From: Ferrimicrobium sp.
Lineage (GTDB): Bacteria > Actinomycetota > Acidimicrobiia > Acidimicrobiales > Acidimicrobiaceae
Assembly (NCBI RefSeq): GCF_027319265.1
Contig: NZ_DAHVNP010000030.1
Location: 1 to 64,000 of the forward strand
DNA length: 64,000 bases
Direction: 5' to 3'
The notes beneath the pieces were generated by a model. That model was not told the DNA's origin. It worked only from the letters and a program-made list of their open reading frames with translations, and did not search any database. The position numbers and the translations under genes are program-made. Within the stretch, counting starts at the first letter, position 1, and every line of letters starts with the position of its first letter. This document shows, piece after piece, positions 760 to 47,284 of this stretch.

Positions 760-2112
760 GTGACACGACCGCTCGACCTGCCGACCTCCTTCGCTGACAG
801 GGTCTGCGTGACCGACCCGGACATCATTGATCCGTACTGCAGCGACTGGACTGGTCGCGTCATCGGCACAACTGACCTACTCCTGCGCCCCGGTACCCAC
901 TATGAGGTCGCGCAATTGGTGCAGGCCGCACGTCAGCACCGTGCAACCCTTCTCGTACAGGGAGGCAATACCTCGCTTGCCGGTGGATCCGTTCCGCTAG
1001 CTCATGAGATTCTTCTCACCACCGAACGCCTCGACACGATCGCCGTCGATCCAGCGTCGATGACGGCGACGGTCGGAGCCGGCGTAACGCTCGCCCGGCT
1101 CCAGTCAGAGATCGCCCGTTACGGATTCACCTTCGGCGTCGACATCGCCTCCCGGGGCTCCGCGACGCTTGGTGGCATGACGGCAACCAACGCAGGAGGG
1201 ATCCACGTCCTACGCTACGGACCAATGGCCGATAATGTCGTCAACCTTTCCTGTGTTTTTGGCGATGGATCGACAATCGAGCGCCGCGACACCCTGCTTA
1301 AAGACGCGACGGGCCCATCGTTGCAACGTCTGCTTATCGGCTCCGAGGGCATCTTTGGCGTGATCACCTCGGTAACTCTGCGTTTGCGGACAACATCACA
1401 ACATCGCTCGGTCGCCATCACCCCTTTGGAGTCGATCGACGAGGGCGTGGCTATCAGCACGTTGCTCCGTGGCAAGCTAGCATCGGTAAACGCCATCGAA
1501 TACCTCGGACCTGAGGCGATTGCCCTCAGCCCGTCCAATCCACCCTGGGAGCGTGGGGCTGGCGGCGCACTCCTTATTGAGGTTCTCGAAACAACCTCCT
1601 CACTGGTCGATACCCTCGACAATCTCAGCCTTGATCGAGAGTGGGTGCTCGCCGACACGACACAAGCGATTCATGGCCTCTGGTCCTGGCGCGAAGACAT
1701 TGCAATGTGGGTGGCCAGGGTTGGCAAACCGCTCAAACTCGACCTCGCCGTGCCGATCAACCGCATCGGCGACCTCTACCGACAGGCGCAGATGGTAGCA
1801 CAGGATGCCCACATTCAGTGCGTCTGCTTCGGTCATCTCGGCGACGGCAACCTCCATATCAACCTCGTAGGTGATGATCATTCCCTCGAAACATCCTCTC
1901 GAGCGATCTATCAGGCGGCGGTTGACCTCGGTGGCACCATCAGTGCCGAACACGGTATTGGTACCCTCAAGAAGGGGGTTCTCCCCCTAATGCGATCGGC
2001 TAGCGAACGTCATCGTCTCTCTCAGCTGATTGAACTCTTCAACCCAGGAAGGGTTGTCAATCCAAATGTTATGCTGGACCCATCACAAGGAGGCGGATAT
2101 GAGCGAAGCTGA
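760..2112 (+). CDS. FAD-binding oxidase of the GlcD/D-lactate dehydrogenase family
   Basis: The 450-residue protein has the two-domain layout of FAD-linked 2-hydroxyacid oxidases. A PCMH-type FAD domain covers about residues 35-215, with QGGNTSLAGGSVP at about 67-79 as the pyrophosphate loop. The C-terminal FAD-oxidase cap carries CFGHLGDGNLHINL at about 355-368 and SAEHGIG near the end, both hallmarks of the GlcD family. Such enzymes oxidise D-lactate, glycolate or D-2-hydroxyglutarate and pass electrons to a carrier; the substrate cannot be told from sequence. The GTG start has only a weak ribosome site. Its stop lies 14 nt inside the following methyltransferase gene, so the two are probably translationally coupled. 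Confidence 0.85.
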   Translation: MTRPLDLPTSFADRVCVTDPDIIDPYCSDWTGRVIGTTDLLLRPGTHYEVAQLVQAARQHRATLLVQGGNTSLAGGSVPLAHEILLTTERLDTIAVDPASMTATVGAGVTLARLQSEIARYGFTFGVDIASRGSATLGGMTATNAGGIHVLRYGPMADNVVNLSCVFGDGSTIERRDTLLKDATGPSLQRLLIGSEGIFGVITSVTLRLRTTSQHRSVAITPLESIDEGVAISTLLRGKLASVNAIEYLGPEAIALSPSNPPWERGAGGALLIEVLETTSSLVDTLDNLSLDREWVLADTTQAIHGLWSWREDIAMWVARVGKPLKLDLAVPINRIGDLYRQAQMVAQDAHIQCVCFGHLGDGNLHINLVGDDHSLETSSRAIYQAAVDLGGTISAEHGIGTLKKGVLPLMRSASERHRLSQLIELFNPGRVVNPNVMLDPSQGGGYERS

Positions 2113-2701
2113 CCAATGGAACGAGCGTTACCGTGAAAGCGACCGGCTCTGGATTCCAGACGCCGACGCATCCCTCAAGGAGGCAATGGCTACAATCGCG
2201 CCAACGACTGCACTCGATCTTGGCTGTGGAGAGGGTCGCAATGCTCTCTACCTTGCTCGAGAGGGCTTCCAGGTAACCGCCGTAGACTTCGCTGACGTCG
2301 CCTTAGATCGACTTCGTACCGTTGCAGCGAATGAAGGTCTGACCATCGAGACCGTCTGCGAAGACATGTACTCGTACCTCGCCCACCCGCATCGCTTTGG
2401 CCTCGTGATCCTTGCAAATATCCACCCCCCACGTCCCGCGCGCCTCGATCTCTACGCCCATCTGCGTGAAATCGTGACACCTGGTGGCCATCTCTATATC
2501 ATCGGTCATCATGTCGACTCCTTCGGCGTGACCGGTCCACCCGACCGAGATCGTCTCATCGATGAGGACGAGATCCGGTCGGCCTTTGACGGGTTCACCA
2601 TCGAAACACTTACAAAGGTCTCTGACATCGCCGATCACGGCCACGCGGCACCTTCCCTTGTCGCACTCCTCCAGCGCCCAAGCGACCCTACTACGGCATA
2701 A
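2099..2701 (+). CDS. Class I SAM-dependent methyltransferase (TehB/UbiE-like)
   Basis: The start chosen is the ATG at 2099, which follows AAGGAGG at good spacing and overlaps the oxidase gene by 14 nt. Starting further upstream at 2030 would only read the oxidase C-terminus in another frame. The 200-residue protein opens with WNERYRESDRLW, then shows motif I ALDLGCGEGRNALYLA at about residues 38-53 and VTAVDFADVALDRL as the acidic loop of a Rossmann-fold methyltransferase. The opening is typical of TehB-like proteins, which methylate small thiol or chalcogen compounds, but the substrate is not established. Linkage to the FAD oxidase suggests one transcript. Confidence 0.82.
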   Translation: MSEADQWNERYRESDRLWIPDADASLKEAMATIAPTTALDLGCGEGRNALYLAREGFQVTAVDFADVALDRLRTVAANEGLTIETVCEDMYSYLAHPHRFGLVILANIHPPRPARLDLYAHLREIVTPGGHLYIIGHHVDSFGVTGPPDRDRLIDEDEIRSAFDGFTIETLTKVSDIADHGHAAPSLVALLQRPSDPTTA

Positions 2702-42272: not shown

Positions 42273-42932
42273 TCACTGAACCTGGCCCCACGCCAGCACG
42301 AGCGTGGGAAGCGAAACAAACGAAGTTGGGTCTGGGTCAACGCCGGTCATGGCTGCGAGATAGCGTCCCGCCAGCGATTCACCCAGACCCACTGGGGTGA
42401 AAGCGGCGATGCTGGGCTCGTTGACTCCCACATTCGTGAGCAGTTCGTACAGGCGCAGGCCGATGTCTGGGTTCGCTATCTCGTCGGTACCAACGCTGAG
42501 CGGGTGACCCTCGACTCTTCCGGTTGACGTAATCGGCTCCATCAAGACGAGATGGCCACCTGGTCGCACCCAGTGTCGCATCCTCTCTACGGCTGCGAGA
42601 GGTGCTGGGAGGTTGAGGAGTAGGAAGCGGCTAAATATCACATCAACCTCGGTCGGTAGTGTGAGCTCGTTCACCTCCTGGACGAGAGTCGTGACGGTGC
42701 AGTGCACCTTTGTGTGCTCGTTAAACGGTGGGTCGAAAACGGTTGGATCATGGTCAATGGCGTAGAGGATGGTGTCGGAGGGGAGCGCTTGGGCAACGTC
42801 GAAGGTGACACCTGCATCACCGCATCCCACATCGGCGACCAGGTGCGGGTTCAAGCTCACGAGGAGATCGAGCAGATGATCGGTGGCTTGCGCGTAGGGG
42901 TCGCTACTGTCATCACCGGTATTTGTCTCCAT
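42273..42932 (-). CDS. Class I SAM-dependent methyltransferase
   Basis: The protein is about 219 residues from the ATG at 42930-42932; an in-frame GTG at 42971 would add 13. The core shows ADVGCGDAGVTFDVA (motif I), ILYAIDHD (acidic strand) and VIFSRFLLLNLPAPLAAVERMRHWVRPGGHLVLMEP (motifs II-III). No substrate can be read from it. It diverges from the DUF6941-like gene and converges with the CPBP protease. Confidence 0.78.
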   Translation of the reverse strand: METNTGDDSSDPYAQATDHLLDLLVSLNPHLVADVGCGDAGVTFDVAQALPSDTILYAIDHDPTVFDPPFNEHTKVHCTVTTLVQEVNELTLPTEVDVIFSRFLLLNLPAPLAAVERMRHWVRPGGHLVLMEPITSTGRVEGHPLSVGTDEIANPDIGLRLYELLTNVGVNEPSIAAFTPVGLGESLAGRYLAAMTGVDPDPTSFVSLPTLVLAWGQVQ

Positions 42933-43991: not shown

Positions 43992-45047
43992 GGCGCTGGT
44001 CGTCTCGTCGGACGGTCTTGGCTAGTCGCCATCGCTTCCGGCATTGCGCCTCCTTGAGTATGGCAGAATTCCATTATTTTCTCAAGGTTTGAGGGCGCGA
44101 GACGATGTTGTTCTGAGAGGAGATGAGCCGCTGACCTAGACCTCCCCCTCTCTGTCACGTGGCCTCTCCTCTCTCACAACGCACCGGTATTGACGAACGT
44201 GATCTTGGCCGGCAATCGTAGGGTTGCGACACTCGGGTTTTGGGATGAGACGGCTGTTGGCATGTTCCCTGCAGTTGGACCGATGCTCGTGAAGCGCGTG
44301 TACTCATGCACCTTGCAGGTCTGTCCTGAGCTTGGTGGCGATGAAGAAATTCTCGCTTGCGTGCAGCAGGTCTTTGAGGCTTAGCAAGCTCGGAACATCG
44401 TGAGCTCTTTGTGGCTCATGATCTTTGTAACCCATTAGCAAGGCATCCCATACATCTGGTCGACGCCAGGGTCGCCATTGGAAGAGGAGTCCTTCGAATT
44501 GCTCTACCTTTCGGCCCTTTGCGAGAAGGGTCCTGACGGCAGTCCACCCTCCTCTGTCGTGTATCGATGCTGTTGTTGAGAAGGGGGCTCCTTTGAAGGA
44601 AATCTTTGTGTCATTGGCGAGATGAGGGGCGGTTGGACGCCCTACGAAGCAACTCCGCACCAAACACTTGCCATACTGAACAACTCCCGGTACAGTCTTT
44701 AGCGATGATCAACCGGCAATATTGGCCTGGTGTCCGAGTGTAACCGTGTCCTTCGATGCCAGCCAGTAGACCGATAGATGGCGGGTGTCATCTCTTTGCC
44801 CCCAGAACATGACGGGGGGTGCAATATCCATCGTGGGAACGGTGTCGTGGAATGAGTGTGCCATAACCTTGTCATGTCATGTCCATCGGGATTCTCCGCA
44901 GAAGGGTGCTCACTCGGATGCGATTGCGAACGAGAGGTGATGTCGATCGAGAGGGCGGGTCGACGAGATTGGTGAGTGGTGGCAGTAACACACGGCGCCA
45001 TCTGGACATAAGAGATAGAGAACCTAATGACCACGTAGGGGGTATCG
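43992..45047. other. 1.06-kb stretch with no recognisable gene
   Basis: Several short frames exist on both strands (the longest about 119 and 134 codons on the minus strand) but none has a clear ribosome site, a recognisable domain or tight packing with neighbours. An imperfect inverted repeat of GAGAGGAG/CTCCTCTC type lies at about 44113-44175 and may end the maoC transcript. The right end holds the promoter of the ECF sigma gene, with GGGGG six bases before its ATG. The stretch is unusual for this otherwise densely packed window and could hold a decayed gene or a small RNA. Confidence 0.5.
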
Positions 45048-45644
45048 ATGATAGAGGAGCGGAAGGAACGTTTTGACGCGTTGTACCGCTCAACACGAGC
45101 CAAAATACTTGCCTACGCGCTGCGACGCGTCCCTTCAACTGAAGACGCCGCGGATGTCTTGGCGGAGACATTCACCGTGGCTTGGCGAAGATTGGAGCAG
45201 GCCCCTGCTGGCGACGCGGCACTCCTGTGGCTCTATGGCATAGCTCACAATGTCGTTCGCAACAACGGTCGCAGTCGTAGGCGGCGTTCGCAGCTCGTGG
45301 GGCGGATTGCGCAGCAGGTGCCTGAAACCGCATGGTGGGACGTCGCACGTGACGAAGAGCGTCTGGTCGCCCTGATGTGCTTAGCGAGACTCCCTCAGGA
45401 TGACCGAGAAGTACTGATGTTGGTGGCCTGGGAAGGACTTGCACCGTCGGCGGTTGCTACGGTACTGGAGTGCTCTGCTGGGGCAGCGAGGGCGCGGATT
45501 CATCGTGCTCGTCGTCGTCTTGAACTGGCGATCCATGCGGCGGAGGCGGAGGATAACCATCGAGTCGATGTCAGTACAAATGGATTAGGAAAACCTGAAG
45601 CAGATCTATTCACCAATGATACCAGAGGAGACAAACCACAATGA
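45048..45644 (+). CDS. ECF-family RNA polymerase sigma factor
   Basis: The 198-residue protein has a sigma-2 region (FDALYRSTRAKILAYALRRV, then AADVLAETFTVAWRRL, about residues 9-48) and a sigma-4 helix-turn-helix (LPQDDREVLMLVAWEGLAPSAVATVLECSAGAARARIHRARRRLE, about 105-150), joined by a short linker, with a 40-residue acidic tail. It would direct transcription of a small regulon, usually including its own gene. The last bases overlap the next gene, whose product is a membrane protein that is the natural candidate for its inhibitor. Confidence 0.9.
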   Translation: MIEERKERFDALYRSTRAKILAYALRRVPSTEDAADVLAETFTVAWRRLEQAPAGDAALLWLYGIAHNVVRNNGRSRRRRSQLVGRIAQQVPETAWWDVARDEERLVALMCLARLPQDDREVLMLVAWEGLAPSAVATVLECSAGAARARIHRARRRLELAIHAAEAEDNHRVDVSTNGLGKPEADLFTNDTRGDKPQ

Positions 45645-47284
45645 AAGTGTTCTTGAGTCAGCTTGATCCGGTCGATGAATGGGCCGTCGAAGCAGCCGTT
45701 ACGCACCCCGTCTTTGCGGAATTATTCGGAGCCATTATCGGGGATGAAGAGATCGAGGCGGTGGCCGAACCTCTCCAAAGCAGCCCTTCCTCCTCTGGGC
45801 GGCCGTCGCGTCGGCGCACAGTCGTGTTCGTGGTGGTTCTGATACTCGTTGGTGGCTTTGTGGGTATTCGAGGTCTTGGTGGTGCTCGTGTACTCACCCA
45901 TCCCATTACCACTGGCTGGCACGAGGCCCAGGCACTCGACTCGGGGAGCTCCGGTCGTAATGGGAGTTGGCAACTTGTCGATGCGGTCATGAGTGGGACC
46001 TGGCAACAGAACGAGGATGGACCACCGCCGGGGTACCTCACCTGCGCGACTCCTGGGCGATGCTACGTGATGGCGGGTAACTACTCGTCCGCTGCTTTTG
46101 GATCGCCACTGCTCTCCGAGTCGCTTTACGTCACGATCGACCAGGGTGCGAACTGGGCAGTTCTTCCTATGCCCACAGGGTTTGCCGCTACGACGGCGCT
46201 GTCCTGTTCGGGAGCGGGCTGGTGCGCAGCCGGTGGAACCTATCACGGGCAACCGATCCTGCTCTCGACGACAGACGGAGGACATTCTTTTACGATGACA
46301 CCAGTGCCGAGCGGGCTGGGCACGATCGATGTCCTCGCGTGTCCATCGCTCGGAGCCTGTGACGCACTTGTTGCGACATCAACTGGACAAAATGATGGTC
46401 CAATAGGAGCTACATTTCTTGCTATGACCGGTGGGGGAGCGAAATTTGTGGATCACCCGATCCTGGCAGGGGATTCGATGGTCGCACTTGCCTGCGTCTC
46501 CTCCACACGCTGTACGGTGGTTGGAGCGACGAGCCGAACACGCGGCTCTCTGCTCCCCACTGGGGTGGCGGCGTTGACAAACAATGGTGGTAAGACGTGG
46601 ACGCCGGGGAGTATCCCTATTGGGTTTGGCATCCAAAGGATGTCTTCGCCTCTGGTCTGTACCGATGCGACCCACTGTGTTCTTGGTGGAGAGATTCCCA
46701 TTCGCGATGCGAATACCTGCGCCGGGATACCCACCGTTGGACCATCGCTTACTTCGTTTTCGCTCGCACCATCGGTACGAGCAATCTCTCGTACTGAGTC
46801 ACGGATCGCCGAAGACTGGGCGACCCAAAGCGGGAGCTTTCAGGGCGCAAGAACCTGTACGAATGCCAGAACCAGCGTAGTGAGCGCGTTTGCGACAAGT
46901 ACGGATGGTGGCTTGACCTGGAACCCGCAGTCCTTGCCCTCCGACGTACCTAGCCCGCAAATCGATGGGCTCGCCTGCTCCTCGACGACTGCGTGCTGGG
47001 CATCGGGATCGGAGTCGGTGCCCCAAAAGATCGCTAAGGTCACTGACTTTGGCTCCTCTGTCCTCTTAGGAACGGTCAATGGGGGTCAGAGTTGGTCAAA
47101 GGTGATCTTTCATGTACCCGCAAGCGCACCGAATCCACAGGGGCAGTCGTACCAGAGTATCGGAGCCGTCAGTTGCCCAACGAGTAGTCTCTGTCTGGCC
47201 GCAGGGGTGGCGGCCCAGGGCGCCAGCGTCAGTCCAATCTATCGTTTGGTTATTCCGCACTACCAACCTCTGGGGTTGGGATGA
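45641..47284 (+). CDS. Single-pass membrane protein with outer BNR/propeller-like repeats, candidate anti-sigma partner
   Basis: The 547-residue protein overlaps the sigma gene by 4 nt (ATGA). Residues 1-60 are probably cytoplasmic and end SGRPSRRR; residues about 61-80 (VVFVVVLILVGGFVG) form one membrane helix; the other 460 residues lie outside. The outer part repeats a unit of the form C-x4-7-C followed by TxDGGxxW (LSCSGAGWCAAGG, STTDGGHSF; LACVSSTRC; LTNNGGKTW; STDGGLTW; LACSSTTACWASG; GTVNGGQSW; VSCPTSSLCLAAG), as in sialidase-like or photosystem-assembly beta-propellers. Paired Cys in most repeats suggest disulfides. The inner domain lacks the HxxxCxxC motif of zinc anti-sigma factors. 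Function as a surface sensor of the sigma factor is inferred from coupling and topology. Confidence 0.72.
   Translation: MKVFLSQLDPVDEWAVEAAVTHPVFAELFGAIIGDEEIEAVAEPLQSSPSSSGRPSRRRTVVFVVVLILVGGFVGIRGLGGARVLTHPITTGWHEAQALDSGSSGRNGSWQLVDAVMSGTWQQNEDGPPPGYLTCATPGRCYVMAGNYSSAAFGSPLLSESLYVTIDQGANWAVLPMPTGFAATTALSCSGAGWCAAGGTYHGQPILLSTTDGGHSFTMTPVPSGLGTIDVLACPSLGACDALVATSTGQNDGPIGATFLAMTGGGAKFVDHPILAGDSMVALACVSSTRCTVVGATSRTRGSLLPTGVAALTNNGGKTWTPGSIPIGFGIQRMSSPLVCTDATHCVLGGEIPIRDANTCAGIPTVGPSLTSFSLAPSVRAISRTESRIAEDWATQSGSFQGARTCTNARTSVVSAFATSTDGGLTWNPQSLPSDVPSPQIDGLACSSTTACWASGSESVPQKIAKVTDFGSSVLLGTVNGGQSWSKVIFHVPASAPNPQGQSYQSIGAVSCPTSSLCLAAGVAAQGASVSPIYRLVIPHYQPLGLG

Follow-up and report, generated by a model that had tools for sequence, protein, structure and literature searches.

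Within the window analysed here, a stretch of 64,000 nucleotides from Ferrimicrobium sp. (contig NZ_DAHVNP010000030.1), two genes on the forward strand overlap by a shared ATGA, and their coordinates and 4-nt overlap are those already given in a preliminary description of this DNA (Table 1). The product of the first gene is an ECF σ factor (σ70 Group IV) that comprises only the σ2 and σ4 domains, located at approximately residues 12–80 and 109–158, respectively. Both domains exceed the Pfam cut-offs (Sigma70_r2, 1.7e-8; Sigma70_r4_2, 5e-12), the NCBIfam model TIGR02937 is matched with 59 bits against a cut-off of 42.9, and the matches in the PDB include SigH, RpoE, SigL and CnrH. The core-binding DAxD motif is intact (DAADVLAETF). 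Since the kinase-activated ECFs described in PMC8103513 are devoid of such an acidic core-binding motif, the retention of DAAD in this σ factor leads one to expect an inhibitor. The σ4 domain is followed by a tail of ~35 residues (window positions 45536–45644), whose FTND..GDK-like end is kept in three species; its overlap with the ribosome-binding site of the partner gene is a possible reason.

The second gene encodes a putative anti-σ/sensor protein with 60 residues inside, one hydrophobic segment and ~460 residues outside. A single-sequence structure model places a helix at residues 57–79 and predicts helices in the inner segment at a pLDDT of ~60. The single-pass topology and the inner 60 residues free of the zinc motif, both claimed beforehand, are thus borne out: only one membrane segment was found, and the inner ~60 residues contain no HxxxCxxC and match no Pfam or NCBIfam family. 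Residues 1–33 show less change than any other stretch of the protein: relative to the 71% orthologue, amino-acid change is 12% there, compared with 51% in the linker and transmembrane segment and 27% in the outer part as well as in the σ factor.

Recurrence of the pair in relatives, for which a search had been suggested, was surveyed in seven genomes of the genus, namely the window's own and six others. Two of the six, representing two other species, have the pair at the 85% and 71% level, its genes arranged as in the window with overlaps of 4 and 1 nt. Three of the seven genomes searched lack the pair, and a fourth (G017) holds a decaying copy, with a σ factor cut after ~83 residues and, behind it, only weak remnants of the partner. 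Being missing or decayed in these genomes, the pair is not essential, a point that weighs against the switch proposed below. In the orthologues, third codon positions diverge two to three times more than first and second positions, which indicates purifying selection on both genes. No relatives were found in viral contigs and plasmids.

Table 1. Features of the σ/partner locus in the window, and the decaying copy in a related genome
Feature	Position	Strand	Evidence
Candidate ECF promoter of the operon, GTAAC-N15-GACATAA, 27 bases	44985..45011	+	Conserved in three species
ECF σ factor, 198 aa	45048..45644	+	Pfam, NCBIfam, PDB matches
Shine-Dalgarno-like AGAGGAG for the partner gene, within the σ reading frame	45624..45630	+	Read from sequence
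ATGA overlap, partner start and σ stop, 4 nt	45641..45644	+	Sequence
Putative anti-σ/sensor protein, 547 aa	45641..47284	+	ORF, orthologues, hydropathy
Inner, putatively σ-facing domain, residues 1–33, contains FLSQLDPVDEWAVEAAVTHPVFAELFGAII	45641..45739	+	Profile match, hhalign, constraint
Single transmembrane segment, residues 61–79	45821..45877	+	Hydropathy
Outer repeat region, residues 135–518, seven CX5C units, Asp-boxes, plus C360/C406	46043..47194	+	Pfam, motif counts
Decaying copy of the pair (L054)	G017:C98, match at 42464-42670; locus coordinates 1498-2226		

The cysteine-paired outer repeats

With one Pfam BNR repeat above the cut-off (3.7e-7) and five Asp-box-like motifs, the outer part of the partner is built of repeated Asp-box blades. 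BNR-like repeats with cysteine pairs had been recognized before, and the pairs can now be specified as seven CX5C units, starting at residues 135, 189, 234, 285, 340, 446 and 512 with a spacing of 45–106 residues, plus C360 and C406. Seven units are not reached in any of 20,000 shuffles of the outer part, and all 16 of its cysteines are invariant across the orthologues of the three species. The fold is probably a seven-bladed propeller; matches to sialidases in the PDB are marginal (0.003), and a structure model of the full partner, based on a two-row alignment, was discarded (pLDDT 27). Two homologues, L184 and L214 (BLAST 8e-17 and 3e-8), which come from two other families within the order, repeat the entire architecture of the window pair, including seven CX5C units.

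The CX5C/Asp-box repeats also occur in further proteins of the genus (L018 at G015:C5; L010 and L011 at G000:C48 and C67; L020, L021 and L026), which appear to be secreted or C-terminally anchored and for which no σ partner was seen. The use of this outer module is wider than signalling.

Redox sensing had been put forward as one role of the outer part. In a redox sensor of this kind, the cysteine repeats would switch the σ factor by making or breaking disulphides. The invariance of the 16 cysteines in three species, together with the presence of 14–16 cysteines in the distant homologues L184 and L214, would be in keeping with such a sensor. However, the same repeats in secreted proteins of the genus that have no σ partner are what is expected of structural disulphides, and this is what the CX5C pairs are suggested to be; moreover, among the members of the family described below that carry other outer domains, most are free of CX5C repeats. 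Redox sensing is thus possible in principle but not favoured, and we regard it as improbable.

A family of zinc-less inner ends behind one σ clade

Of 397 genomes of the order, 113 contain matches (E≤1e-25) to a profile made from the window σ factor and 12 relatives, as do 57 of 396 genomes of the phylum at E≤1e-32. For the pairs with a σ score of at least 120 and a located downstream gene (n = 115), the downstream protein has a predicted membrane segment in 106 cases, mostly as a single-pass protein, and the two genes overlap by 1, 4, 8 or 11 nt in 91 (by 4 or 1 nt in 74). HxxxCxxC is found in none of these 115 clade partners; it appears only with more distant σ factors, such as those with scores of 60–80, where 28 of 40 partners carry it. 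When a tree of 184 σ factors is labelled according to whether the partner has the present or the zinc domain, a single change suffices to split the labels.

The inner ends behind this clade have a median length of 60 residues and, in 98 of 106 cases, no cysteine at all. They share the motif L..xx[DN]PV....P...LL..I, in which a helix, [DN]PV, a variable stretch and P...LL..I follow in this order, and [DN]P is present within the first 40 residues of 100 of the 115 clade partners versus 6 of 33 zinc partners. Using an inner profile built from the order with the window's genus left out, the window partner ranks first among the 713 reading frames of the window (E 0.0066), its inner segment scoring 16.4 bits, a value that none of 5000 shuffles of its own sequence attains. 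Comparison of the window set with the family by hhalign yields a probability of 85% (E 6e-6), and outside the order the profile recovers 18 of 24 partners (E<0.02), against 0 of 480 shuffled sequences. In the reverse direction, a search of 296 genomes by the inner alignment alone returned 24 matches, and the eight best, and 12 overall, lie directly behind a σ factor of the clade; the remaining 12, at E 8e-4 or higher, are weak and probably due to chance. The shortness of the motif and the weakness of individual matches, as illustrated by the E value of the window protein, count against an anti-σ reading. Judging from these profile comparisons, the inner end of the window protein is a member of a family that accompanies one σ clade throughout the phylum.

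The outer parts attached to family members include BNR, Ycf48-like and NHL propellers, sortase, Germane/Gmad2, neocarzinostatin-like and LppX-like domains, as well as collagen repeats. For instance, the [DN]P-type partner at L047:1980-2684, encoded directly after an ECF σ factor, has a sortase domain (Pfam 3e-31) on the outside and so joins an enzyme to an apparent anti-σ end.

Such an extreme diversity of outer domains (sortase, NHL, neocarzinostatin-like, Germane/Gmad2) is also what would be seen if the partners were mixed effectors, that is, co-transcribed target genes of an orphan σ factor that make no contact with it. Against this, the inner end is the part that all of them share, and similarity among the σ factors is mirrored there and not in the outer part. 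Across 103 pairs, σ similarity correlates with inner-domain similarity with r 0.258, whereas the maximum among 300 permutations was 0.121 (0/300 as high) and the first 100 outer residues of the same chain give r 0.083. The target-gene reading is very improbable, the least probable of those considered. The covariation is what a σ-binding end would show, and it fits such a role rather than proving it, because co-inheritance within the operon contributes and the permutations ignore relatedness; the comparison with the outer part reduces this concern but does not remove it. When the σ domains are taken separately, σ4 covaries most strongly with the inner domain (0.29), which hints at a contact between σ4 and the first inner helix, and the second inner helix follows both σ2 and σ4 beyond all permutations. 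Covariation with both σ domains fits the fact that the three known classes of ECF anti-σ domains all contact σ2 and σ4 (PMC7406223).

The proposal that the inner end might be a new kind of σ-binding element can accordingly be kept in part. Its low amino-acid change (12%) and its tracking of the σ factor over 103 pairs are those of a σ-facing domain, but it is not peculiar to the window protein; since it belongs to a family behind a σ clade, any novelty is a matter of the family as a whole.

Relation to known anti-σ classes and proposed mode of action

Short anti-σ domains without zinc are already known from CnrY (class II) and RsbN (class III) (PMC7406223, PMC8103513). Like CnrY, which acts on CnrH in Cupriavidus metallidurans, the window partner combines a short zinc-less inner domain, of predicted helices, on a membrane protein with an ECF σ factor, and its 60 residues before the membrane helix are compatible in length with class II domains (<~60 aa), which wrap two helices around σ2 and σ4 from outside; however, the inner family has no sequence match to any solved anti-σ chain, CnrY included, and the Cnr system senses through a separate protein, CnrX (PMC4598750), whereas the putative sensor of the window pair lies on the same chain. 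RsbN, the partner of BldN in Streptomyces, is likewise membrane-anchored, zinc-less and paired with an actinobacterial ECF, but it too has no sequence match with the inner family. A search of the PDB with the inner profile at E≤10 retrieved neither CnrY nor RsbN nor any other such chain. The class I zinc proteins (RsrA, RskA-like, ChrR) are similar in being encoded by an overlapping gene directly after that of the ECF, often with a single membrane helix, and differ in the HxxxCxxC motif, which many of them carry but which is missing from the window protein and from all 115 pairs, and in a negative profile comparison. Membership in class I was rejected on the missing zinc motif and hhalign probabilities of 0.1–0.8%.

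A derivation from class I is nevertheless worth considering, in which the inner domain would be a shrunken zinc or RskA-type domain with only the last, σ2-binding helix left. A weak resemblance leaves room for such an origin, since 19 of 106 family members weakly match NCBIfam NF052375 (4.8e-6 at best) in a region that comprises the last ASD helix and the membrane segment. This match, however, partly covers an Ala-rich membrane region, and the hhalign probability against zinc class I domains is only 0.1% with the family and 0.8% with the window set, compared with the 85% between window set and family. We therefore hold a reduced class I domain to be unlikely. The inner family most likely resembles CnrY and RsbN in its way of working while matching no known class by sequence.

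Two NCBIfam models without assigned function touch upon the family, CU044_5270 (NF038083), matched by 26 of its 106 members, and SCO4651 (NF053532), matched by 22. Both describe chiefly the segment that follows the motif, together with the outer part. The window protein has no match to either; two members from 9-Mb genomes exceed the curated cut-off of CU044_5270 and have the same inner motif. No mention of the CU044_5270 family was found in the literature searched. The family of inner ends thus appears to be widespread and undescribed, with an earlier description of the σ group or of its partners being possible. As a tentative proposal, somewhat less probable than its opposite, the [DN]P inner domain would constitute a separate, fourth structural class of ECF anti-σ domain, distributed throughout the phylum and providing the same plug to outer sensors of widely differing kinds, from a cysteine-braced propeller of seven repeats to sortases and NHL propellers. 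A class I anti-σ gene is present near about a third of ECF σ factors (PMC7406223), and a motif that marks σ-facing ends phylum-wide would offer a handle on many of the ECFs that lack a known regulator; it shows how a single inner plug can be joined to numerous outer sensors. The motif also makes direct tests possible, namely whether a peptide of ~35 residues inhibits its own σ factor, and where it binds.

Taken as a whole, the pair is likely to be a σ/anti-σ switch composed of a zinc-less membrane anti-σ factor and a surface sensor, in which the small inner end very probably holds the σ factor off and the outer part probably senses something outside. The inner ~35 residues, as short helices with DP and HP turns for caps, would hold the σ factor at the membrane and thereby keep it from RNA polymerase, while the disulphide-braced outer domain of seven repeats, probably a propeller, would sense a surface ligand or the state of the envelope. 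Upon a signal, proteolysis of the partner or a change in its inner domain would free the σ factor, which may then transcribe at least the operon that encodes it, from the promoter GTAAC-N15-GACATAA.

The partner might instead be a positive factor that activates the σ factor or acts as its chaperone, in the manner of some FecR-type systems, given that some membrane partners of σ factors, as in FecI/FecR, are needed for σ activity. Yet such dual factors are a minority, the architecture and the gene overlap are typical of anti-σ pairs, and the core-binding motif of the σ factor is intact. An activating role is hence quite improbable, and inhibition by the inner end is preferred.

As for the promoter, GTAAC-N15-GACATAA is kept in three species within an upstream region that has otherwise diverged, and it occurs as a single copy per genome, before the σ/partner operon, in the window's own genome (G000) as well as in G019 and G015. 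AAC-type -35 boxes, GTAAC among them, are also present in Streptomyces σE promoters (PMC6767563). This precedent and the conserved single-copy element make it likely that the σ factor autoregulates its operon from this candidate promoter; as the element is found only once per genome, any further targets must carry looser sites.

Other σ loci were noted in the window's genome. A second zinc-less pair of σ factor and membrane protein (L032, G000:C56) has a different inner end (MDELDLLRGF...) and an SCO4651-like outer part. Two near-identical loci (L033 and L034, at G000:C68 and G000:C5) each encode an ECF σ factor and a zinc-type anti-σ factor of 97 aa, followed by the same two downstream genes.
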